Shown: positions 35,100-47,104 of the stretch, piece by piece
Layout of the letters: every line of letters starts with the position of its first letter
Numbering within the stretch: position 1 is the stretch's first letter
Origin: Pseudomonas synxantha
GTDB taxonomy: Bacteria; Pseudomonadota; Gammaproteobacteria; Pseudomonadales; Pseudomonadaceae
Assembly (NCBI RefSeq): GCF_900105675.1
Contig: NZ_LT629786.1
Location: forward strand, 2,914,001 to 2,978,000
DNA length: 64,000 nt
Direction: 5' to 3'
Made by a program: the position numbers and the translations under genes
The notes under the pieces: generated by a model
What the model was told of the DNA's origin: nothing
What the model saw: the letters and a program-made list of their open reading frames with translations, nothing else
Databases searched by the model: none

Positions 35100-35212
35100 G
35101 CCGATCTCCAATCATTGAGAGGCGTTTTTACAACCTACAGCTTCCGTGCGAAGCCATCCTTGACGGATATCAAGCTATCAACCTCGAATAAAGGTTTTAT
35201 CCGTCGCCTCGA

Positions 35213-35908
35213 TTACCCCCGCAACACGAACGCTGGAAACAACTCGCGCATGGCCGCCCAAAGATCCGCAAGCAAGGCAGGCGCCAGCACACTCGGCAGC
35301 TGAGGATCAAACATCTGCTCGGTGCGTACCAGCTGCACGGCAAAGCGTTTGACCCCCAGTTCACTCAAGCGCTGCGCCAGGGTCAACAGACCTGCCGGCT
35401 TGAACAGATGCCAATGCACGGTGGTACGGCATTCGTAGTCCACACCACCGGCCAGAAGATGTTCAAGGCTGCGCCAGTTCGCCGCTCCACTGCCTTCGAC
35501 CCGAGTGATTGCCTGGCAATCCTCGGGCAACGCCTTGACATCGAAACCGACCCAATCGGCACCGGTCAGCGCCTTGGCAAAGGCTGTTGGCTTGATGCCG
35601 GCACTGTGAAGACCGATGCGAAAGCCCATCGCCCGCACTTCGTCCATGGCGTCAAGTAAACCCTCTTGCAAGGTTGGCTCACCGCCGCTGAACACCACCG
35701 CATCGAGCAGGTCCTGCCGGCGTTGCAGGAACGCCAATACCCGCCGCCAATCGACTTCGTCGGTGCCGCGAGGCGGGATCAACTGCGGGTTATGGCAGTA
35801 ACGACAACGCCAGGCGCACCCCTGGCAAAACAACACACAGGCGAGCAGCCCCGGATAGTCGATGGTGGTCAGGGGCACCATGCCCCCAACCCGCAGCGTT
35901 CGACTCAT
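35213..35908 (-). CDS. nrdG: NrdG, anaerobic ribonucleotide reductase activating enzyme
   Basis: Radical-SAM activase of 231 residues that installs the glycyl radical on class III ribonucleotide reductase. The cluster motif is CQGCAWRCRYCHN (Cx3Cx2C core) near 29-39 and the GGEP motif is SGGEPTL. The ATG overlaps the stop of the small glycyl-radical ORF (ATGA), so activase and radical peptide are translationally coupled. Confidence 0.93.
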   Translation of the reverse strand: MSRTLRVGGMVPLTTIDYPGLLACVLFCQGCAWRCRYCHNPQLIPPRGTDEVDWRRVLAFLQRRQDLLDAVVFSGGEPTLQEGLLDAMDEVRAMGFRIGLHSAGIKPTAFAKALTGADWVGFDVKALPEDCQAITRVEGSGAANWRSLEHLLAGGVDYECRTTVHWHLFKPAGLLTLAQRLSELGVKRFAVQLVRTEQMFDPQLPSVLAPALLADLWAAMRELFPAFVLRG

Positions 35909-36072
35909 TGGCGAGCGGCCAGCGCCGCGCTTTCAGTAAAGTGCACCCGCTCGCGGTGCTCGGACTGTTTGCCCGGATTGAACGCCGATACCGGGCGGTG
36001 ATAACCCATTACCCGAGTCCAGACTTCGCAGCGTTGACGTTGAGCCTGGGGCAGTGTTTGCGATGCAGTCAT
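35905..36072 (-). CDS. Separate glycyl-radical domain of class III ribonucleotide reductase
   Basis: The protein has 55 residues. The sequence RVMGYHRPVSAFNPGK matches the C-terminal glycyl-radical loop of NrdD proteins, with the presumed radical residue G23. The main NrdD ORF upstream ends right after its zinc site and lacks this motif. The ATG at 36072 has its own AAGGAG 8 nt upstream and lies 32 nt after the nrdD stop, in a different frame. The stop overlaps the nrdG start. A TTG at 36108 would give a longer form (67 residues). It is probably a split subunit or spare-part peptide; a decayed frameshift is less likely given the ribosome site. Confidence 0.75.
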   Translation of the reverse strand: MTASQTLPQAQRQRCEVWTRVMGYHRPVSAFNPGKQSEHRERVHFTESAALAARQ

Positions 36073-36104
36073 GGTAAAGCTCCTTGCGATTGAGTGGATC
36101 GAAA

Positions 36105-38120
36105 TCAATGAGCGGTGCCGGGTTGCTGTTCTTTCAACAGCAGAACCTCGTCACATTTGGGACAGAACTCGTGCTCGCCATCGAGGTAACCGTGCACCGG
36201 GCAGATGGAGAACGTCGGGGTCACGGTCAGGTACGGCAGGCGGAAGCGTCCGAGGGCTTTGCGCACCAGTTGCTTGCAGGCTTGGGTCGAGGAAATCCGC
36301 TCGGCCATGTACAGATGCAAGACCGTGCCCCCGGTGTATTTGCATTGCAGTTCGTCTTGCAGTTGCAGGGCTTCGAAGGGGTCGTCGGTGTAGCCCACCG
36401 GCAGTTGCGAGGAGTTGGTGTAATACGGCGCTTGCAGCGTGCCGGCCTGGAGGATGTCGGGGTAACGCTTGAGGTCTTCCTTGGCGAAACGATAGGTGGT
36501 GCCTTCCGCCGGGGTCGCTTCCAGGTTGTAGAGGTGCCCGGTTTCTTCCTGGAAACGCAGCAACGTGGCGCGCACATGGTCCAGCAGCTTCAGGGCGAAC
36601 TGGCGGCCCTGTTCGGTGTGCGTGCCCTCTTTGTCAGCGGTGAAGTTGCGCAGCATTTCATGCAGGCCATTGAGGCCGATGGTGGAGAAATGGTTGCGCA
36701 AGGTACCCAGGTAACGCTTGGTGTAAGGGTACAAACCGGCATCCATATGGTGCTGGATGACCTTGCGTTTGACTTCCAGGCTCTCCATCGCCAATTCCAT
36801 CAGCGAGTCCAGCCGCTTGAGCAGACCGCTGGTGTCGCCCTTGAATACATAACCCAGGCGCGCGCAGTTGATGGTTACCACGCCCAGCGATCCGGTCTGT
36901 TCCGCCGAGCCAAACAAACCGCCGCCGCGCTTGAGCAATTCGCGTACATCCAGCTGCAACCTGCAGCACATGGACCGCACCTGATTGGGTTGCAGATCGG
37001 AATTGAGGAAGTTCTGGAAATACGGCAGGCCATAACGGGCCGTCATTTCGAACAGGCGATCAGCGTTCTCGCTGTCCCACGGAAAGTCATGGGTAATGTT
37101 GTAGGTCGGGATCGGGAAGGTGAACACCCGCCCTTTTGCATCACCGGCTTGCATCACCTCGATGTAGGCGCGGTTGAGCATATCCATTTCAACTTGCAGG
37201 TCGCCGTAGGCAAACGGCATTTCCTCTCCACCGATGACAGGGATCTGCTCGCGTAGATCCTGCGGGCACACCCAGTCGAAGGTCAGGTTGGTGAACGGGG
37301 TCTGGGTGCCCCAGCGCGACGGTACGTTGAGGTTGTAGATGAATTCCTGGATCGCCTGGCGAACCTGCGCATAGCTCAATTGATCCTTACGCAGGTACGG
37401 CGCCAGGTAGGTATCGAACGAGCTGAAAGCCTGGGCGCCGGCCCATTCGTTTTGCAGCGTGCCGAGAAAATTCACCATCTGCCCCAGGGCACTGCTCAAG
37501 TGCTTTGGCGGCCCGGCTTCGACACGCCCTGGCACGCCGTTGAGCCCCTCGTGCAACAAGGTCCGCAGCGACCAGCCGGCGCAATATCCGGCCAGCATGT
37601 CCAGGTCGTGCACATGCAGATCAGCCTCGCGATGGGCCTGGCCAATGGCTTCGCTGTACACCTCGTCCAGCCAGTAGTTGGCAGTGACCTTGCCCGACAC
37701 ATTCAGCACCAGCCCGCCCAGGGAGTAGCCCTGATTGGCATTGGCCTGGACCCGCCAGTCTTCACGGTCCAGGTATTCGTTCATCGACGCCGCCACTTCG
37801 ACCAGGGTCCGCCGGTCACGGCGCAAACGCCCGTGTTGTTCGCGATAGACGATGTAGGCCCGCATGGAAAGGAAATAACCGGCGTCCATCAGCACCCTTT
37901 CAACGCGGTCCTGGATTTGCTCGACATGCAGCCTGGACAAGCCTTCCAGCCGGGCCAGTACCGCCTGCAGCAATCCTTCGGCTTCTACCTCGGTATATTC
38001 CCCCGTGGCCTTGCCCGCCGCGATCAATGCCTGACGGATTTTGTCCGCATCGAAAGCGACCAGGGTGCCGTCGCGCTTGTGCAAACGGGTACATCCCACT
38101 GAAACCAGCGTGCTCTGCAT
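36105..38120 (-). CDS. nrdD: NrdD, class III anaerobic ribonucleoside-triphosphate reductase, large part without the glycyl-radical loop
   Basis: The protein has 671 residues. An N-terminal ATP-cone occupies about 1-95. The catalytic barrel follows, with the Cys pair region MCCRLQLD. The C-terminal zinc site is ICPVHG then FCPKCDE, after which it stops at QQPGTAH. A normal NrdD continues with a RVxGY radical loop, which here lies in the next small ORF. The ATG at 38120 has GGAGG 5 nt upstream. An ANR/Dnr box is centred about 93 nt upstream, so anaerobic induction is expected. Confidence 0.9.
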   Translation of the reverse strand: MQSTLVSVGCTRLHKRDGTLVAFDADKIRQALIAAGKATGEYTEVEAEGLLQAVLARLEGLSRLHVEQIQDRVERVLMDAGYFLSMRAYIVYREQHGRLRRDRRTLVEVAASMNEYLDREDWRVQANANQGYSLGGLVLNVSGKVTANYWLDEVYSEAIGQAHREADLHVHDLDMLAGYCAGWSLRTLLHEGLNGVPGRVEAGPPKHLSSALGQMVNFLGTLQNEWAGAQAFSSFDTYLAPYLRKDQLSYAQVRQAIQEFIYNLNVPSRWGTQTPFTNLTFDWVCPQDLREQIPVIGGEEMPFAYGDLQVEMDMLNRAYIEVMQAGDAKGRVFTFPIPTYNITHDFPWDSENADRLFEMTARYGLPYFQNFLNSDLQPNQVRSMCCRLQLDVRELLKRGGGLFGSAEQTGSLGVVTINCARLGYVFKGDTSGLLKRLDSLMELAMESLEVKRKVIQHHMDAGLYPYTKRYLGTLRNHFSTIGLNGLHEMLRNFTADKEGTHTEQGRQFALKLLDHVRATLLRFQEETGHLYNLEATPAEGTTYRFAKEDLKRYPDILQAGTLQAPYYTNSSQLPVGYTDDPFEALQLQDELQCKYTGGTVLHLYMAERISSTQACKQLVRKALGRFRLPYLTVTPTFSICPVHGYLDGEHEFCPKCDEVLLLKEQQPGTAH

Positions 38121-38206: not shown

Positions 38207-38220
38207 TTGATCAATATCAA
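38207..38220. promoter_or_regulatory. Perfect ANR/Dnr (FNR-type) box upstream of nrdD
   Basis: TTGAT-CAAT-ATCAA is a perfect match to the FNR-family consensus TTGATnnnnATCAA. It lies 93 nt upstream of the nrdD start on the minus strand, in the gap between moaA and nrdD. With the usual -41.5 spacing, transcription would start about 50 nt before nrdD. Confidence 0.85.
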
Positions 38221-38302: not shown

Positions 38303-39295
38303 TCAGCCGCCACTCATGTTCATGAAGCGCACTACCTGCACCTCGCCGCCAGGGTTGAAGTCGTGGCGCAATGGCTTGCCGTGCAGGGCTTTGTGCACGG
38401 CGTCGATCAGCGGTTGATCGTCCAGCGGATAGCGGCGCAGCAAGCCACGCAAATCCAGCGCGTCGTCCTGCCCCAGGCACAGCAACAGCTTCCCCTCAAC
38501 GGTCATCCGTACCCGGTTGCAACTGCCACAAAAGTTGTGACTGTTGGGTGAGATGAAGCCGATGCGGGTATCGGGATGGCGTTCCAGGCGCACGTAACGC
38601 GCCGGCCCCCCACTGTTTTCGGCGCTGTCGAGCAACCGGTGCCGGCTGGCGATCAGCGTTCGCACCTCATCGCTGGAGCAAAACGCTTCGCCCCGTGAGC
38701 GCCCTACGTCACCCAGGGGCATTTCTTCGATGAAACTGATGTCGATGCGTTGCCGGATGGCGTACTGCACCAGCCCCAGCACTTCATCGAAGTTGCGCCC
38801 CTTCATCACCACGCAGTTGAGCTTGACCCGCTCAAACCCCGCGCCGCGCGCCGCTTCAATGCCGCCCAGCACTTGGTCGAGATCGCCGTTGCGGGTGATC
38901 GCGCGGAATTTCTGCGCGTCCAGGCTATCGAGGCTGATGTTCATGCGCTTGACGCCCGCCTCCGCCAACGGCCGGGCCAACCGGCCCAGTTGCGAGCCGT
39001 TGCTGGTCATCACCAGTTCCCGCAAACCCGGCAACGCGGCGATATTGCGGCATAAATCGACAATGCCGGGACGGATCAGCGGCTCACCGCCGGTCAGGCG
39101 AATCTTGCGTACACCGAGGCCGACGAACAGCGTCGCCAGGCGCTGCAACTCCTCCAGCGTCAGGACCTGCTGACGCGGCAGGAACGTCATGTTTTTCGCC
39201 ATGCAATACACACAGCGAAAATCACAACGGTCCGTCACCGACATTCGCAGATAGTCAATCTGCCGTCCAAAACCATCCTGCATGACCGCGTTCAT
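38303..39295 (-). CDS. moaA: MoaA, GTP 3',8-cyclase of molybdopterin synthesis
   Basis: Radical-SAM enzyme of 330 residues. The N-terminal cluster CDFRCVYC and the C-terminal cluster motif CGSCNRVR with a later Cys are present, and it ends in the MoaA-type Gly-Gly. It makes the first cyclised intermediate of the Mo cofactor needed by NarG. It is the last gene of the nar operon, 24 nt after the PpiC gene. The ATG at 39295 has GGGAG upstream. Confidence 0.93.
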
Positions 39296-39319
39296 CACTT
39301 CTCCCGTTGCCCCCAAGGC

Positions 39320-40279
39320 TCACTGCACCAGCGGCGAGTCGGCACCCTGCAAATGGATGCCGCGAATATCCGCCGCGCCGATCAGGGTTTGCAGGTATTG
39401 CACCAGGGCTTTTTGCCAGACGCCTTGCTGCAACTGCGTGCGGATCGCCGTCGACACCACTTCGTAGGGCAACGGCATGCCTTCGATCCGCTGATCGACA
39501 CTGACCACGTGCCAGCCGTAACGGCTTTCCAAAGGTTTACTGGCCAGCCCCGGTGCCAGGGTGAACAGCTGGCGTTCCAGTTCGGGCACGGTCTGGCCCT
39601 TGCTGATCTGCCCTAAGGAGCCGCCCTGAGCCTTCGACGGGCAGGCCGAATACTTCACCGCCAGCTCGGCAAAACTGCCGGGGAGGTCCGCCAGCCGTTG
39701 CAGCAGGATTTCAGCCTGGGCATGCGCAAGTGCACGGGCCTCGGCATCGTCCGGCGCACATTCAAGCAGGATGTGCCGCACGGCCAGCAACGGCGCGCTG
39801 TGAAAGCGCCCGCGGTTATTTTCGTAATAACGCAGGCTGGTCTCTTCGTCGCACTGCGGCACCTGCACCTCACGCTCAAGCAACAAGCGCGTGGCTGCTT
39901 CTTCTTCGTTCTCACCGGCGCCGATCTGCAGCGACACACCGAGTTCGGCAATGCGTTGCTGCAACAACTCGCGGATCACCAGCGCTCGAGCGGCCTGATA
40001 GACCGCCTCCTCGCGGGTTGGCGCCGGGTGATATTGCAACTCCTGGGCCAGCGCCTGTGGGGTGATCGACACCTCATTGACGCTGATGATCGGCCACTCC
40101 TGCTCGCTGCTGGCGATCAACTGCGCCGGGGCGTCATCGGCTGCTGGCGCAACCGGCAGCTCGTCAAACTGCACCACACCGGTCGGCGCGATATCCACTA
40201 CATCGGCCTCGAGTTTTTTTGAAGAACCGCAGCCACCGCTGCCCCCGTTACCGCCGCCACATCCACATCCACCTGACAT
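39320..40279 (-). CDS. PpiC-type peptidyl-prolyl isomerase of the nar operon
   Basis: The protein has 319 residues. An unusual Gly/Cys-rich N-terminus (Cys at 5, 7 and 17) is followed by a SurA/NifM-like helical region and a parvulin domain with VRHILLE and GGSLGQISKGQ. No signal peptide, so it is cytoplasmic. The same gene lies between narI and moaA in Pseudomonas nar operons. It probably assists folding or maturation of the nitrate reductase, but the role is not established by the sequence. Confidence 0.85.
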   Translation of the reverse strand: MSGGCGCGGGNGGSGGCGSSKKLEADVVDIAPTGVVQFDELPVAPAADDAPAQLIASSEQEWPIISVNEVSITPQALAQELQYHPAPTREEAVYQAARALVIRELLQQRIAELGVSLQIGAGENEEEAATRLLLEREVQVPQCDEETSLRYYENNRGRFHSAPLLAVRHILLECAPDDAEARALAHAQAEILLQRLADLPGSFAELAVKYSACPSKAQGGSLGQISKGQTVPELERQLFTLAPGLASKPLESRYGWHVVSVDQRIEGMPLPYEVVSTAIRTQLQQGVWQKALVQYLQTLIGAADIRGIHLQGADSPLVQ

Positions 40280-40289
40280 GATTGTCTCC

Positions 40290-40970
40290 TCAGAATTTCT
40301 GCCGAACGATTTGATAACGACGCCCCAAGTACCAGACCGGTGCGCTGATCATGTGTACGAGACGGGTGAAGGGAAACAGCACGAACAAGGTCAAGCCGAG
40401 AAACACATGCAGCTTGTAGGTCAGCCCGACGGGCGCGATAGACGCCGCCGCTTCCATTGGCCGCAGCAGCACAGTGTTCTGCGCCCAATCGGCGAGCATC
40501 ACCATCACCGAGCCGTCCATATGCTCGGTGGACGCGACAATCGTCAGCAGGCCGAGCAGCAATTGCGCGAGCAGCACCAGCAGGACCAAGATGTCCGACG
40601 GGCTGGAAGTGGCGCGAACCCGTGGGTCGGTCAGCCGCCGCTTAATCAGCATCAGCAACCCCACCAGGCATAACAGGCCGAAGACCCCACCGGAAACCAT
40701 CGCCAGTAACTGCTTGTTCTGCGTGCTGATCACATGGTGGTAGACCGATGCCGGCGTCAGCAGGCCGACGAAGTGCCCGGCCAGCACGAACAACACGCCG
40801 ATATGGAAAAAGTTACTCGCCACGCGCATGCCACGCTGGTTGAGCATCTGGCTGGAGCCGGCCTTCCACGTGTACTGCGACAGATCGAAGCGAGCCCAAC
40901 TGCCAAGCAGGCAAATCGCCAGGGCCACATAAGGGTAAACCCCGAACAGCAAAAGATTCCATTTAGACAT
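40290..40970 (-). CDS. narI: NarI, nitrate reductase gamma subunit (cytochrome b)
   Basis: Membrane subunit of 226 residues with five helices. It carries the two b hemes and oxidises quinol, passing electrons to NarH. His ligands lie in FFHIGVLFVLAGHFVG and in the late THKLHVF-like region (YKLHVFLGL). The ATG at 40970 overlaps the end of narJ by 8 nt. The longer open frame upstream lies inside narJ and is not real. Confidence 0.94.
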   Translation of the reverse strand: MSKWNLLLFGVYPYVALAICLLGSWARFDLSQYTWKAGSSQMLNQRGMRVASNFFHIGVLFVLAGHFVGLLTPASVYHHVISTQNKQLLAMVSGGVFGLLCLVGLLMLIKRRLTDPRVRATSSPSDILVLLVLLAQLLLGLLTIVASTEHMDGSVMVMLADWAQNTVLLRPMEAAASIAPVGLTYKLHVFLGLTLFVLFPFTRLVHMISAPVWYLGRRYQIVRQKF

Positions 40971-41724
40971 TACCCACCTCCTTGGCTGGCACAGCGGCCA
41001 GCCCTTCATGCTGAAAATCGACCCAGTGCAGCGGCACCGCGCTTTCTTCCCGGGCCTTGCCCGGCGCGCTTGGCAGCGAACTGCAACGGTCCTGCTGTTC
41101 GGCCTGCAGAAAGTCCACGGCCTCTTCTTCCCAGATCTTGTCGAGGGCTTCGAGGGAGTCATCGCGCGGTTCTGCGGCGACCTGTTCGCGCAGGTCAGCC
41201 ACCGCTTGATGGGGCTCGGCACCGGCGATCTGCAGCAACGCCCGGAAGCAACTGGCGTAAGCGCTTTCACGCTCCTCCAGGCGCGCCGCCAGCAAGGCCA
41301 GCAGATGCGCCACATCCGCCAGGCCTTCGCGGGCCTCAATGTCTTCGCGGGTCGAAAGGAACTCCAGGTACAGCGGGATAAAGTCCGGCAGCTCCTTGAC
41401 GCCAATGGCAAAACCGGCGGCTTCGTACTGGGCCATCATGTCGACCATCGCCTGGCCACGGTCACGGGACTCACCGTGCACGTGCTCAAACAACAGCAGC
41501 GACAGCGAGCGCCCGCGGCCGAACAGCGCACCGTAGTGCTCCTGCCCGTCCATCAGGTCATTGGCGCAGATCAGTTCCAGCAACTCGAACAATGCGCCGC
41601 GTTGCGTCGGGCTGATTTCCCGGGACTGGGCAATCGCTTGTTCCAGTTCGTCGCGACCGCCCGTCAGTGCCTCGGTCGGGTAGTCGAGCAGCAGCGACAT
41701 CACTTTGAGAATTTGCATGCTCAT
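40963..41724 (-). CDS. narJ: NarJ, nitrate reductase assembly chaperone
   Basis: Cytoplasmic chaperone of 253 residues that holds NarG for Mo-cofactor insertion. It has the N-terminal MSLLLDYPTE and the central LYLEFLST motif of the NarJ/TorD family. The ATG overlaps the narH stop (ATGA) and its stop overlaps narI, so the operon is tightly coupled. The C-terminal 40 residues are variable. Confidence 0.93.
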   Translation of the reverse strand: MSMQILKVMSLLLDYPTEALTGGRDELEQAIAQSREISPTQRGALFELLELICANDLMDGQEHYGALFGRGRSLSLLLFEHVHGESRDRGQAMVDMMAQYEAAGFAIGVKELPDFIPLYLEFLSTREDIEAREGLADVAHLLALLAARLEERESAYASCFRALLQIAGAEPHQAVADLREQVAAEPRDDSLEALDKIWEEEAVDFLQAEQQDRCSSLPSAPGKAREESAVPLHWVDFQHEGLAAVPAKEVGNV

Positions 41725-43259
41725 TGCTCCCACACCTGCACGGTTTTGAGGATGTCGCGGCGGTTGGCTTTCTTCGCCCCAAACAGGTTGGTGTCGGAAC
41801 TGCCGCTGCAACCGCTGCCGAAACTGAAGCCGCAACCGGAGCGTTCGGCGAAGGCGTCGCTCATGGCGTCTTCGCGGTGCGCACTCGGTACCACGAAGCG
41901 GTCTTCATAGTTGGCAATCGCCAGGTAGCGATACATCTCTTCGACCTGGGCCACGCTCAAGCCGACATCCGCCAGCACTTGCAAGTCCTGCACGCCATCG
42001 ACTTGCTCGGAACGCTTGTAGGCGCGCATCGCCAGCAAGCGTTTGAGCGCACGCTTGACCGGTTTTTCATCGCCCGCCGTCAGCAGGTTGGCCAGGTACT
42101 TGAGTGGAATGCGCAGGCTGTCCACATCCGGGATCACCCCGTTCATGCCCACGGTGCCGGCGGTCGCGGCGTTCTGGATCGGCGAGAGCGGCGGCACATA
42201 CCAAACCATCGGCAAGGTGCGGTATTCCGGGTGCAGCGGCAGCGCAAGCTTCCAGTCCACCGCCATCTTGTAGACCGGCGAGCGTTGCGCCGAGTCGATC
42301 ACCGACTGCGGCACACCATCGGCCAAGGCCTGGCGGATCACCGCCGGATCGTTCGGGTCGAGGAAGATCTCCAGTTGTTTTTCGTACAGGTCCTGCTCGT
42401 TGGCGGTGCTGGCGACTTCGCTGATGCGGTCGGCGTCATACAGCAGCACCCCGAGGTAGCGGATACGACCGACACAGGTTTCGGCGCAAACCGTCGGCAT
42501 CCCGGCTTCGATACGCGGGTAGCAGAAGATGCACTTCTCGGATTTGCCGCTTTTCCAGTTGAAGTAGATCTTCTTGTACGGGCAGCCACTGATGCACATC
42601 CGCCAGCCACGGCATTTTTCCTGGTCGATCAGGACGATGCCGTCCTCTTCGCGCTTGTAGATCGCCCCGCTGGGGCACGACGCCGCGCAGGTCGGGTTGA
42701 GGCAGTGCTCGCACAGGCGCGGCAGATACATCATGAAGGTGTTTTCGTACTCGCCGTAGATGTCCGCCTGGATCTTGTCAAAGTTCTTGTCCTTGCGACG
42801 CTTGGCGAATTCGGTACCGAGGATTTCTTCCCAGTTCGGGCCCCATTCGATTTTTTCCATGCGTTTGCCGGAGATCAGCGAACGCGGGCGCGCGGTGGGC
42901 TGGTGCTCGCCCAGCGGAGCGGTGTGCAGGTGCTGGTAGTCGAAGTCGAACGGCTCGTAGTAGTCGTCGAGGCTCGGCAGGTCCGGGTTGGCGAAAATGT
43001 TCGCCAATACGCGAAATTTACCGCCGATGCGTGGGTTGATCGTGCCGTTGGCGTTGCGAATCCAGCCGCCCTTCCACTTGTCCTGGTTTTCCCATTCCTT
43101 CGGATAGCCGATGCCCGGTTTCGATTCAACGTTGTTGAACCAGGCGTATTCCATGCCTTCGCGGCTGGTCCAGACGTTTTTGCAGGTGATCGAACACGTG
43201 TGGCAACCGATGCATTTGTCCAGGTTCAGAACCATGCCGATTTGTGAGCGAATCTTCAT
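41721..43259 (-). CDS. narH: NarH, nitrate reductase beta subunit (iron-sulphur)
   Basis: The protein has 512 residues. It has four Cys groups: CIGCHTCSITC, CEHCLNPTCAASCP, CRGWRMCISGC (Trp replaces one Cys, the [3Fe-4S] signature) and CIFCYPR with CAETC. It relays electrons from NarI to NarG. The ATG at 43259 immediately follows the narG stop. Near the C-terminus it has a short Gly/Cys/Ser stretch (SGCGFSFGSGCSGSS). Confidence 0.95.
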   Translation of the reverse strand: MKIRSQIGMVLNLDKCIGCHTCSITCKNVWTSREGMEYAWFNNVESKPGIGYPKEWENQDKWKGGWIRNANGTINPRIGGKFRVLANIFANPDLPSLDDYYEPFDFDYQHLHTAPLGEHQPTARPRSLISGKRMEKIEWGPNWEEILGTEFAKRRKDKNFDKIQADIYGEYENTFMMYLPRLCEHCLNPTCAASCPSGAIYKREEDGIVLIDQEKCRGWRMCISGCPYKKIYFNWKSGKSEKCIFCYPRIEAGMPTVCAETCVGRIRYLGVLLYDADRISEVASTANEQDLYEKQLEIFLDPNDPAVIRQALADGVPQSVIDSAQRSPVYKMAVDWKLALPLHPEYRTLPMVWYVPPLSPIQNAATAGTVGMNGVIPDVDSLRIPLKYLANLLTAGDEKPVKRALKRLLAMRAYKRSEQVDGVQDLQVLADVGLSVAQVEEMYRYLAIANYEDRFVVPSAHREDAMSDAFAERSGCGFSFGSGCSGSSDTNLFGAKKANRRDILKTVQVWEQ

Positions 43260-43260
43260 C

Positions 43261-46200
43261 TCAGTTCTCCTCGATATCGGTCGGCAGCGGACGCGGCAGG
43301 TCATCACCGGACGAACCATCGAGCCAGTCGACTTTGGACATTTTGCGCACCACGACAAACTCATCGCGGTTGCAGCCGACGGTGCCGTAATAGTTGAAAC
43401 CGTAGGCTTGCTGGGCGTAGCCACCGATCATGTGGGTCGGCTTGAGCACGACGCGGGTCACCGAGTTGTGGTGGCCGCCACGGGTCTTGGTGGTTTCGGA
43501 ACCGGGTACGTTCACGATTCGTTCCTGGGCGTGGTACATCATCACCATGCCGTCCTTGACCCGCTGGCTGACCACCGCACGGGCAGTCAGCGCACCGTTG
43601 ACGTTGAAACATTCGATCCAGTCGTTGTCTTCAATACCGGCGCTTTTCGCATCATTCTCCGAGAGCCAGACAATCGGCCCGCCACGGCTGAGGGTCAGCA
43701 TCAGCAGGTTGTCGCTGTAGGTACTGTGGATACCCCATTTCTGATGCGGGGTGATCCAGTTCAGGACGATCTCGATCTCGCCATTGCTGCGCTTGCCCTT
43801 CACCCCTTCGATGGTGCGGGTATTGACCGGTGGGCGATAACTCATCAGCTGTTCGCCGAACGCCTGCATCCACGGGTGATCCTGGTAGAACTGCTGGCGG
43901 CCGGTGATGGTGCGCCATGGGATCGCCTCGTGCACGTTGGTGTAGCCGGCGTTGTAGCTGACGTGATCGTCTTCGAGACCCGACCAGGTCGGGCTGGAAA
44001 TGATCTTGCGCGGCTGGGCCTGGATGTCGCGGAAACGAATCGCCTCGTGGGCCTTGGACAGCGCCAGGTGGCTGTGGTCGATGCCGGTGAATTCCGACAG
44101 CGCGGCCCAGGCTTTCACGGCAACCTGGCCGTTGGTTTCCGGCGCCAGGGACAGGATCACCTCAGCGGCGTCGATGGCCGTGTCGATTTTCGGCCGACCG
44201 TGGCTGATGCCGGCATCGCCTTCGTGGTGGTTCAGCTCACCGAGGAATTTCACTTCGTCTTCGGTGTTCCAGTTGATGCCCTTGCCGCCGTTGCCGTGTT
44301 TTTCCAGCAATGGCCCCAGGGACGAGAACTGCTTGTAGATGTTCGGATAATCACGCTCGACCACATGCAGGTTCGGTGCGTTTTTCCCCGGCACTGGCGC
44401 CACTCCGTCACTTTTCCAGTCGGTGCCGCCAAACGGCTGAGCCAGTTCGCCAACACTGTCGTGCATCAGTGGCAGGGTCACCAGGTCCTGTTCGACGCCC
44501 AGGTGCCCTTCGGACATGCTGGAAAACGCCTTGGCAATGCCCTTGTAGATTTCCCAGTCGGAACGCGACTCCCACGCGGGGTCGATGGCGGCCGACAAGG
44601 GGTGAATGAACGGGTGCATGTCCGAGGTGTTCATGTCGTCTTTTTCGTACCAGGTCGCGGTCGGCAAGACGATGTCGGAATACACGCAGGTCGAGGACAT
44701 GCGAAAGTCCAGTGTGGTCACCAGGTCGAGCTTGCCGATGGCGCCCTCGTCAACCCATTCGGCTTCTTCGGGTTTGCAGTCGCCGACCTGGCCGATGTCT
44801 TCGTTCATCACGCCGTTCTTGGTGCCGAGCAGGTACTTGAGCATGTACTCGTGGCCCTTGCCCGAGGAGCCCAGCAGGTTGGAACGCCAGATAAACATGT
44901 TGCGCGGGAAGTTCACCGGGCTGTCCGGCTGCTCGCAGGAAAAGCGCAGCGAACCGTCCTGCAGCGACTTGACCACATAGTCTTTCGGGTCCATGCCGGC
45001 GGCGGCCGCATCGCGGCAGATGTGCAGCGGGTTGGTATTGAGTTGCGGCGCGCTGGGCAGCCAGCCGGCCCGTTCGGCGCGGATGTTGTAGTCCAGCGCG
45101 TGTTCGGGAAATTGGGATTTATCGGCCAACGGCGATAGCACGTCGTGCATGCTCATTTTCTCGTGGCGCCATTGCGAACTGTGGGCGTAGAAAAAGCTGG
45201 TGCCGTTCATTTGTCGCGGTGGACGGTTCCAGTCCAGGCCGAACGCCAGGGGCAGCCAACCGCATTGTGGGCGCAATTTTTCCTGGCCGACGTAGTGCGC
45301 CCAACCACCGCCGGTCTGGCCGACACACCCGCAGAGCATGAGCATGTTGATCAGCCCGCGGTAGTTCATGTCCATGTGGTACCAGTGATTCATCGCCGCG
45401 CCGACGATAATCATCGAGCGGCCCTTGGTCTTGTCGGCGTTATCGGCAAACTCACGGGCGATCTGGATGGCTTTTTCGCGGCTCACGCCGGTGATTTTCT
45501 CCTGCCAGGCCGGGGTGCCGGGCACCGAGGCGTCGTCATAATCCTTGGCGACGTTTTCGCCGCCCAGGCCACGATCAATCGCCAGGTTGGCCGCCGACAG
45601 GTCGAACACGGTGGCCACTTTAGCGACGCTACCATCGGCCAGCACCACGTTATGCACCGGCACCCGGCGGTATTGCACGGCATCGCCGGCGACGTGCTGG
45701 AAGTGTTCGTGGGACTCACCGGCAAAATACGGGAACGCCACTTCGGCGACGTCATCGCCCATCAGGCTCAGTTTCAGATCGATCTCGCGACCTTCGCCAC
45801 CTTCACGGGCAAGAATGTTCCACTTGCCCTTCTCTCCCCAGCGATAACCGATGGACCCCTGAGGGGACACCAGTTCACCGTCGACGTCGAGGGCGATGGT
45901 TTTCCATTCCGGGTTGTTTTCCTGGCCGAGGTTGTCGGTCAGGTCACTGGCGCGCAGGAAACGGTCCGGCTGATAGCCGGCACCCGGTGCCTTGTCGACC
46001 ATTTGCTTGAGCAGCACCAGTACCGGCAAATCGGTGAAGCGCTTGGCGTATTCGGTGAAATAGGCGCTCGGTTTGTCGAGGTGGAATTCTTTGAAGATGA
46101 CATGGTTGAACGCCTGCGCCAGTGCCGCATCGGTGCCTTGTTTGGGGTTCAGCCACAGGTCGGTGAGCTTGGCGACTTCCGAATAGTCGGGGGTAATGGC

Positions 46201-47034
46201 GACCGTCTTGGTGCCCTTGTAACGCACTTCGGTAAAGAAGTGCGCGTCCGGGGTCCGGGTCTGAGGGACGTTGGAGCCCCAGGCAATGATGTAGTTGGAG
46301 TTGTACCAGTCGGCCGATTCCGGCACGTCGGTCTGCTCGCCCCAGACCATCGGCGAGGCCGGCGGCAAGTCGCAGTACCAGTCATAGAAGCTCAGGCATG
46401 CGCCGCCGATCAGCGACAGGTAACGCGAGCCGGCGGCGTAGCTGACCATCGACATGGCCGGGATCGGCGAGAAGCCGACAATGCGGTCGGGCCCATATTG
46501 CTTGATGGTGTAGACGTTGGCCGCCGCGATGATCTCGTTGACTTCTTCCCAGTTGGAACGAATGAAGCCACCCATGCCGCGCTTGCTTTTATAGGACTCG
46601 GCCTTGGCCTTGTCCTCGACGATGCTCGCCCAGGCTTCGACCGGCGCCAGGGTCTGGCGCGCATCGCGCCACAGCTTCAGCAACGGTTTGCGGATTTTCG
46701 GGTACTTGAGCCGGTTCGCGCTGTAGATATACCAGCTATAACTGGCGCCACGCGGGCAACCACGGGGTTCATGGTTAGGCAGATCGTTGCGGGTGCGCGG
46801 GTAGTCGGTCTGCTGGGTTTCCCAGGTGATCAAGCCGTTCTTGACGTAGATTTTCCACGAGCAGGACCCGGTGCAGTTCACCCCGTGGGTGGAGCGCACG
46901 ATCTTGTCGTACTGCCAGCGGGAACGGTAGACGTTTTCCCAGTCGCGAGACTCTTTGCGGGTCTCTCCATGACCGTCGGAAAACTCGTTTTGCTTGCGAT
47001 TGAAAAACCGCAATTGGTCCAGTAAATGACTCAC
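43261..47034 (-). CDS. narG: NarG, nitrate reductase alpha subunit (molybdenum)
   Basis: Catalytic subunit of about 1257 residues, cytoplasmic and membrane-anchored through NarI. The FS0 cluster ligands are H50, C54 and C58 in HGVNCTGSC. Molybdo-bis-MGD binding motifs follow, for example YIIAWGSN and GCVGQTGGGWAHYVGQEK. The likely start is the GTG at 47034 (MSHLLDQL) because GAGAGG lies 8 nt upstream; another in-frame GTG is at 47043. Opposite-strand frames across this gene are composition artefacts. Confidence 0.96.
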   Translation of the reverse strand: MSHLLDQLRFFNRKQNEFSDGHGETRKESRDWENVYRSRWQYDKIVRSTHGVNCTGSCSWKIYVKNGLITWETQQTDYPRTRNDLPNHEPRGCPRGASYSWYIYSANRLKYPKIRKPLLKLWRDARQTLAPVEAWASIVEDKAKAESYKSKRGMGGFIRSNWEEVNEIIAAANVYTIKQYGPDRIVGFSPIPAMSMVSYAAGSRYLSLIGGACLSFYDWYCDLPPASPMVWGEQTDVPESADWYNSNYIIAWGSNVPQTRTPDAHFFTEVRYKGTKTVAITPDYSEVAKLTDLWLNPKQGTDAALAQAFNHVIFKEFHLDKPSAYFTEYAKRFTDLPVLVLLKQMVDKAPGAGYQPDRFLRASDLTDNLGQENNPEWKTIALDVDGELVSPQGSIGYRWGEKGKWNILAREGGEGREIDLKLSLMGDDVAEVAFPYFAGESHEHFQHVAGDAVQYRRVPVHNVVLADGSVAKVATVFDLSAANLAIDRGLGGENVAKDYDDASVPGTPAWQEKITGVSREKAIQIAREFADNADKTKGRSMIIVGAAMNHWYHMDMNYRGLINMLMLCGCVGQTGGGWAHYVGQEKLRPQCGWLPLAFGLDWNRPPRQMNGTSFFYAHSSQWRHEKMSMHDVLSPLADKSQFPEHALDYNIRAERAGWLPSAPQLNTNPLHICRDAAAAGMDPKDYVVKSLQDGSLRFSCEQPDSPVNFPRNMFIWRSNLLGSSGKGHEYMLKYLLGTKNGVMNEDIGQVGDCKPEEAEWVDEGAIGKLDLVTTLDFRMSSTCVYSDIVLPTATWYEKDDMNTSDMHPFIHPLSAAIDPAWESRSDWEIYKGIAKAFSSMSEGHLGVEQDLVTLPLMHDSVGELAQPFGGTDWKSDGVAPVPGKNAPNLHVVERDYPNIYKQFSSLGPLLEKHGNGGKGINWNTEDEVKFLGELNHHEGDAGISHGRPKIDTAIDAAEVILSLAPETNGQVAVKAWAALSEFTGIDHSHLALSKAHEAIRFRDIQAQPRKIISSPTWSGLEDDHVSYNAGYTNVHEAIPWRTITGRQQFYQDHPWMQAFGEQLMSYRPPVNTRTIEGVKGKRSNGEIEIVLNWITPHQKWGIHSTYSDNLLMLTLSRGGPIVWLSENDAKSAGIEDNDWIECFNVNGALTARAVVSQRVKDGMVMMYHAQERIVNVPGSETTKTRGGHHNSVTRVVLKPTHMIGGYAQQAYGFNYYGTVGCNRDEFVVVRKMSKVDWLDGSSGDDLPRPLPTDIEEN

Positions 47035-47104
47035 GGTGTACACCTCTCAGGCTTGCTGCGGGGTTCTGTGCCCCGCCCACGCAATGGTTGGATTCGGGCT
47101 CGAC

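Follow-up and report, generated by a model that had tools for sequence, protein, structure and literature searches.

The window analysed here, a 64,000-nt stretch of Pseudomonas synxantha DNA within one contig of a 6.84-Mb genome, carries three consecutive genes on its minus strand: the large chain of an NrdD (36105..38120), a 55-residue ORF with a glycyl-radical loop (35905..36072, stop included) and nrdG (35213..35908). The nrdD frame has 671 codons from an ATG at 38120, which is preceded by TGGAGG; residue numbers of the large chain follow the listed ORF of 687 codons, which starts at TTG 38168. The chain comprises an ATP-cone, a barrel and a zinc knuckle and terminates in ...FCPKCDEVLLLKEQQPGTAH (also given as ...SICPVHGYLDGEHEFCPKCDEVLLLKEQQPGTAH) at TGA 36105-36107, just past the knuckle. 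The RVxGY motif of the glycyl-radical loop is absent from it, as a first-pass annotation of this DNA had noticed.

The large chain matches positions 2-528 of Pfam NRDD (579.1 bits) together with an ATP-cone, and scores 1127.8 bits against NF006126 (cut-off 548) and 450.3 bits against TIGR02487 (cut-off 326.35), which places it above the cut-off in all three families that define class III (NrdD) membership. The NrdG that is looked for beside a class III NrdD is also present, the radical-SAM activase matching TIGR02495 (NrdG2) with 210.4 bits (cut-off 131.15). The RVxGY motif, which is looked for in the same chain, is confined to the separate ORF, and we therefore file the locus as a split variant rather than as an ordinary NrdD. 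Cysteines occupy both columns of Cys415-Cys416 (36921..36926) in 36/36 split and 21/21 fused rows, making these two the candidate thiyl-radical cysteines. The knuckle, C670-P-V-H673 ... C683-P-K-C686 (36111..36161), keeps Cys 670, 683 and 686 in the same 36/36 and 21/21 rows, and by analogy with class III structures it would bind zinc.

A perfect TTGAT-N4-ATCAA match, which we take to be the Anr/Dnr box consensus, lies at 38207..38220, 86 nt upstream of the nrdD ATG, and the cluster nrdD - small gene - nrdG is probably switched on by Anr/Dnr without oxygen. Upstream of nrdD on the same strand (38303-47043), frames read by eye resemble moaA, a PpiC-type protein and narI/J/H/G, and may form a nitrate respiration island. 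Downstream of nrdG lies a DUF3079 gene (PF11278; 34884-35099, minus strand), by which an Anr/Dnr-like box with one mismatch is found at 35160-35173.

The small glycyl-radical ORF

The small ORF starts at ATG 36072, 32 nt after the nrdD stop and in a frame other than that of nrdD, and runs for 55 codons to its stop at 35905-35907. An AAGGAG ribosome-binding site (36080..36085) precedes the ATG at a spacing of 7 nt, and the ORF overlaps the nrdG ATG (35908) by 4 nt in a common ATGA. The first-pass description of its position, ribosome site, frame and overlap with nrdG was thus accurate. The peptide matches positions 531-562 (of 562) of Pfam NRDD with 36.9 bits (cut-off 26.2), dividing the profile cleanly between the two ORFs, and the genome has no NRDD match besides these two. 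In a family search at E up to 1 it matched NRDD and, weakly, DUF6191, and no family of the pyruvate formate-lyase (PFL) type (Gly_radical in Pfam); a sequence search of the PDB, likewise at E up to 1, returned no match. Gly23 (codon 36004..36006), within RVMGY, is invariant in 29 aligned peptide rows and is the expected radical site. Cys15 (codon 36028..36030) is invariant in split peptides, and Thr stands in its place in fused homologues.

Pooled pN/pS over a 36-codon core in 15 copies of the same family was 0.071 (pN 0.041, pS 0.580). The chosen start was ATG in 43/43 rows from sampled genomes and in 75/76 split rows from a scan of named genomes. Since the script that chooses starts favours ATG and Shine-Dalgarno sequences, the same choice was run on control windows inside nrdD: an ATG with at least 5 nt of Shine-Dalgarno sequence at 4-11 nt was found at 59/76 named split loci compared to 16/1520 control windows. 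Profile match, low pN/pS and start/Shine-Dalgarno enrichment together confirm that the small ORF is not a chance ORF. Five matches to the peptide were flagged for an internal TGA and considered as selenocysteine candidates; this is the peptide's own stop in three (L028, L030 and L049), and the other two (L039 and L057) are weak matches.

Split and fused enzymes in cellular genomes

The small peptide found matches in 16/57 relatives (one of them, G041, with a fused E. coli/Bdellovibrio-like NrdD and another, G022, with a remnant), and profile matches occurred in 28/274 class-level and 27/398 phylum-level genomes, fused and weak matches included. The named ones among 120 listed of 2063 homologues are mostly Pseudomonas. 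The same genome draws were searched for the large chain, with NrdDs counted at 50% identity or more. The small gene is present in all 42 genomes, our own included, whose loop-less NrdD has its C-terminus on the contig; a 43rd row (G203), cut by the contig end, was left out of this count. In 41 of them the distance from nrdD stop to small-gene ATG is -38 to +133 nt, and the frame relations 0/1/2 number 5/17/19. In the remaining genome (G624) ~9 kb separates nrdD from the small gene and nrdG, with all three on one strand. Four sampled genomes (G277, G690, G110 and G069) hold fused relatives. The only NrdD in G286 is a fragment of 151 residues, and the small peptide was not found in this genome. 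G022, of the same genus, gave no nrdD match; what remains there is a shortened nrdG frame and the final 26 codons of the small gene, so loss does occur within the genus. In four genomes with weak matches (G266, G093 at C33, G210 at C175 and G128) the peptide was not confirmed. Three split enzymes (L132, L191 and L279) have NrdD frames with long insertions, ~310 aa in L132, that are intein-like by length and place.

Named genomes were also scanned with 29 diverse peptide queries, each species being represented once (84,980 species according to the description of the tool). The best 80 of at least 583 relatives were analysed, ranked by likeness to the split peptide, an order that favours split loci: 76 are split beside nrdD, none is fused and 4 lack nrdD in the fetched stretch (L172, L195, L200 and L205, the last two with nrdG directly after). 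Frame relations 0/1/2 among the 76 pairs are 18/38/20, and gaps between nrdD and the small gene range from -38 to +415 nt over the sampled and named sets. These 80 loci come from 35 Gamma-, 23 Beta- and 6 Alphaproteobacteria, 6 Pseudomonadota without class, 6 unplaced genomes and four possibly misbinned metagenome bins (two Omnitrophota, one Verrucomicrobiota, one Chloroflexota). Cultured examples of the split are Allochromatium palmeri, Marichromatium gracile, Pseudomonas indica and Ectothiorhodospira shaposhnikovii. Twenty-nine plasmid records match the small peptide, split and fused forms counted together. In Cupriavidus necator H16 and Sulfuricystis multivorans the small gene is annotated by RefSeq as an nrdD of its own, and it is therefore no news to annotators.

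Fused relatives are more distant and by name mainly Alphaproteobacteria. Among the best 120 of 7999 scored relatives of a fused Pseudaquidulcibacter enzyme, all are fused, with both an HGY in the zinc motif and RVMGY, and all 120 have Thr four residues past the last knuckle Cys. Split peptides have Cys at this site (29/29 aligned peptides and 80/80 best named genome loci). Two further cysteines mark the split large chains, at columns 315 (36/36 split rows) and 449 (34/36), each present in 1/21 fused rows. Since the fused loop exits directly from the zinc knuckle, the Cys of the split peptide should sit near the knuckle, and our guess is that Cys15 is linked to the large chain by zinc or a disulfide. 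In trees of the large chain 18 fused forms cluster and three changes between split and fused state are required, with the fused G277 placed among split forms and the split G524 deep; these sequence trees may be compatible with a single origin of the split. The G277 locus (L134), from a genome 82% complete and 3% contaminated, has a large chain that groups with split enzymes and a fused C-terminus with Thr, which may reflect re-fusion, recombination or a binning artefact.

Peptides on viral contigs

The loop peptide also occurs on viral contigs. Among the best 80 of 281 relatives on IMG/VR contigs (L247-L326), 74 have an assigned start and no NrdD in the fetched stretch, five are alike without an assigned start and one (L279) lies beside nrdD; these stretches reach at most 4 kb per side and often less, with at least 2 kb on both sides in 42/75 loci with measured flanks. 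The 80 peptides comprise 57 distinct cores, and 79 have Cys and one has Thr at the split-specific site. An NrdD search of 29 whole viral records gave no match in 28, the records being possibly fragments and none rated 90% complete or more. On 27 viral records the NRDD profile matched by its end only (from 521-532 to 561-562) in every case. Neighbours at six viral loci matched tape measure, head, head protease, tail fibre, replication initiation, helicase and SSB proteins, while 4/16 neighbours tested either had no match or fell only into families without a known function. All four viral peptides tested matched PHROG 4132 (unknown function). A search of 50,697 annotated phage records with two viral peptides returned 0 and 2 (weak) matches, which argues against a wide spread.

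In several viral peptides (L264, L272, L273, L313, L324 and L326) the loop is preceded by a Cys-rich leader, which may be a metal knuckle of their own. ANMV-1, a virus of an archaeon (KP703175, L331:2686-3120), encodes a protein of 144 aa that contains CEMYSRIVGY and two CxxC pairs; the 6.1-kb stretch examined around this gene has no further annotated NrdD part. BMS3Bbin13 has a second copy of the small gene (L130), with RecT, YqaJ and a class I/II-type reductase chain in its neighbourhood. The stand-alone viral peptides are the most surprising part of the finding and would be a new kind of auxiliary gene.

A proposed two-chain class III reductase

We propose that the locus encodes a class III (anaerobic) ribonucleotide reductase that obligately consists of two chains, one of them a detachable glycyl-radical peptide. 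Its activity is predicted from homology, and we put the probability of this reading at roughly 0.87. The first-pass annotation had suggested a two-chain class III enzyme, and this is still the best reading given the divided NRDD profile and the split kept in relatives; by sequence, it is a real and widespread two-gene class III reductase. Its observed basis consists of the gene split, separate translation signals, conservation, co-occurrence and homology to both parts of NRDD, from which we infer docking, radical formation on the peptide and the absence of a fused product. Both chains would be expressed from one cluster, the large chain supplying the ATP-cone, the zinc knuckle and the catalytic barrel in which the radical cysteine lies, and the 55-aa peptide bearing the radical-storing glycine. 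The peptide would dock by the zinc knuckle and insert Gly23 into the barrel; NrdG would generate the glycyl radical on the peptide, and the radical would then move to the barrel cysteine. Class III enzymes are described as being cleaved by oxygen at the glycyl radical in the available text of PMC3019208, and the likely benefit of the arrangement is that such cutting would destroy only a cheap, replaceable peptide.

For the in-frame Ectothiorhodospira pair (L230) we made a single-chain fold, replacing the stop by Trp and using 48 aligned rows. The model has a mean pLDDT of 80.4, with ten-residue blocks over 691-740 at 78-89; residues 383-409, which include the L230 candidate radical cysteines 384-385, are below 50. 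Over 509 residues it superposes on Prevotella NrdD (8p2s_B) at 2.9 Å, model 107-735 on chain 94-735, loop included. With one chain, the stop as Trp, 48 rows and cysteines below pLDDT 50, the model is no test of two-chain binding, and we take it to indicate compatibility with the two-chain reading only. Other structural alignments end at model residue 633-634 (8p2c, 8p28, 8p2d and 8p27 from Prevotella; 4con from Thermotoga, with citrate). The available text of PMC11226230 reports that in the presence of ATP, but not of dATP, the glycyl radical domain is ordered in one monomer. Two of the four short-aligning Prevotella entries are titled dATP-bound, but 9d3x with dATP aligns to 739, so there is no clean sign of a dATP effect on loop alignment.

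A frameshift or stop readthrough could instead join the two ORFs into an ordinary fused NrdD, the start of the small ORF being incidental. The frames do agree in 5/41 sampled and 18/76 named pairs, 16 of the 18 with a single stop between, but all three frame relations occur and the gaps vary, so no constant shift site is possible, and the conserved shift site with constant frame relation that marks a programmed frameshift gene was not found. The conserved ribosome site and ATG, the small gene 9 kb away in G624 and its solitary occurrence on viral contigs likewise speak against recoding, which we consider very improbable. Less probable still is a sequencing error or a decaying pseudogene of a once-fused nrdD. 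The decay seen in G022 speaks for a pseudogene, but the split is kept in Gamma-, Beta- and some Alphaproteobacteria with few amino-acid changes. In close relatives the split persists together with the start and ribosome site of the small gene, the check that had been suggested, and the single continuous ORF that a one-base error would predict is not seen; only more distant relatives are fused.

The small peptide might also serve as a repair spare, in the manner of GrcA, if NrdD were complete through another glycine, for example the HGY in the zinc motif. YfiD and T4 Y06I restore oxygen-cut PFL according to the accessible part of PMC8683613, and the viral copies resemble spares. However, HGY also occurs in 120/120 of the best fused homologues, alongside RVMGY, and hence probably does not serve as the radical site. 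A second loop is missing from the large chains here, and for this reason the peptide looks obligate rather than a spare. We rate a repair spare about as improbable as recoding. On the two-chain reading, nrdD and nrdG would be expected to give no activity when cloned without the small gene.

We extend the two-chain reading, at even odds, to a broader proposal: the class III reductases of many Proteobacteria would be natively two-chain, with the vulnerable radical on a swappable peptide of 50-60 aa; phages, and an archaeal virus with a related form that has its own Cys pairs, would carry the peptide alone to renew or commandeer DNA-precursor synthesis of the host; and the invariant Cys would hold the peptide at the zinc knuckle or at a split-specific Cys. 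A two-chain NrdD would also offer a clean peptide-in/peptide-out system for radical installation, oxygen damage and repair.

Comparison with known systems

The small gene is already known to RefSeq, and a description of the split NrdD was not found in our search of open-access main texts. An earlier mention is possible in a 1999 paper reportedly dealing with ribonucleotide reduction in Pseudomonas and in another, said to be from the same year, on a megaplasmid nrdD in Alcaligenes eutrophus. In the available text of PMC9531940, a large family survey discarded sequences of fewer than 400 residues, a size filter that would not have kept the small gene. PA1920 NrdD is listed at 76 kDa in anoxic cells in the accessible part of PMC12284477.

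Single-chain NrdDs (NF006126/PRK08270, TIGR02487; 8p23, 4u3e, 1h78, 9d3x) share the ATP-cone, barrel, conserved Cys, zinc knuckle, RVxGY loop and adjacent NrdG, but here the loop is a separate peptide with its own start, and before the loop split peptides have a conserved leader (consensus LxDxERQxC) with the invariant Cys, a site at which fused enzymes have Thr. The split class II NrdJa-NrdJb of Pseudomonas (PMC4520616, available text) likewise consists of two genes in one operon, in partly the same Proteobacteria, and is described there as the only split reductase found in a non-viral organism; it belongs to a different class, and its separate part serves thiol-disulfide exchange, not radical storage. 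Phage nrdD and nrdA genes are also found in pieces, divided by introns, inteins or homing endonucleases, with nrdD split by introns or inteins and in one case by an unknown cause (PMC3653736, as far as its accessible text goes), whereas here the 32-nt gap is free of mobile elements and the break keeps to a single functional boundary. YfiD/GrcA and phage T4 Y06I, the only validated cofactors of this sort named in the available text of PMC8683613, both for PFL, are likewise small separate glycyl-radical-loop proteins for a large partner, with phage copies. The split pairs have the same separate-small-chain gene anatomy and would supply the radical in a similar way. The likeness to YfiD/GrcA drawn in the first-pass annotation would hold in function but not in family: YfiD and Y06I restore a cut PFL, whose own loop they duplicate, whereas here the large chain is loop-less and the peptide is of the NRDD type, matching no PFL-type family.
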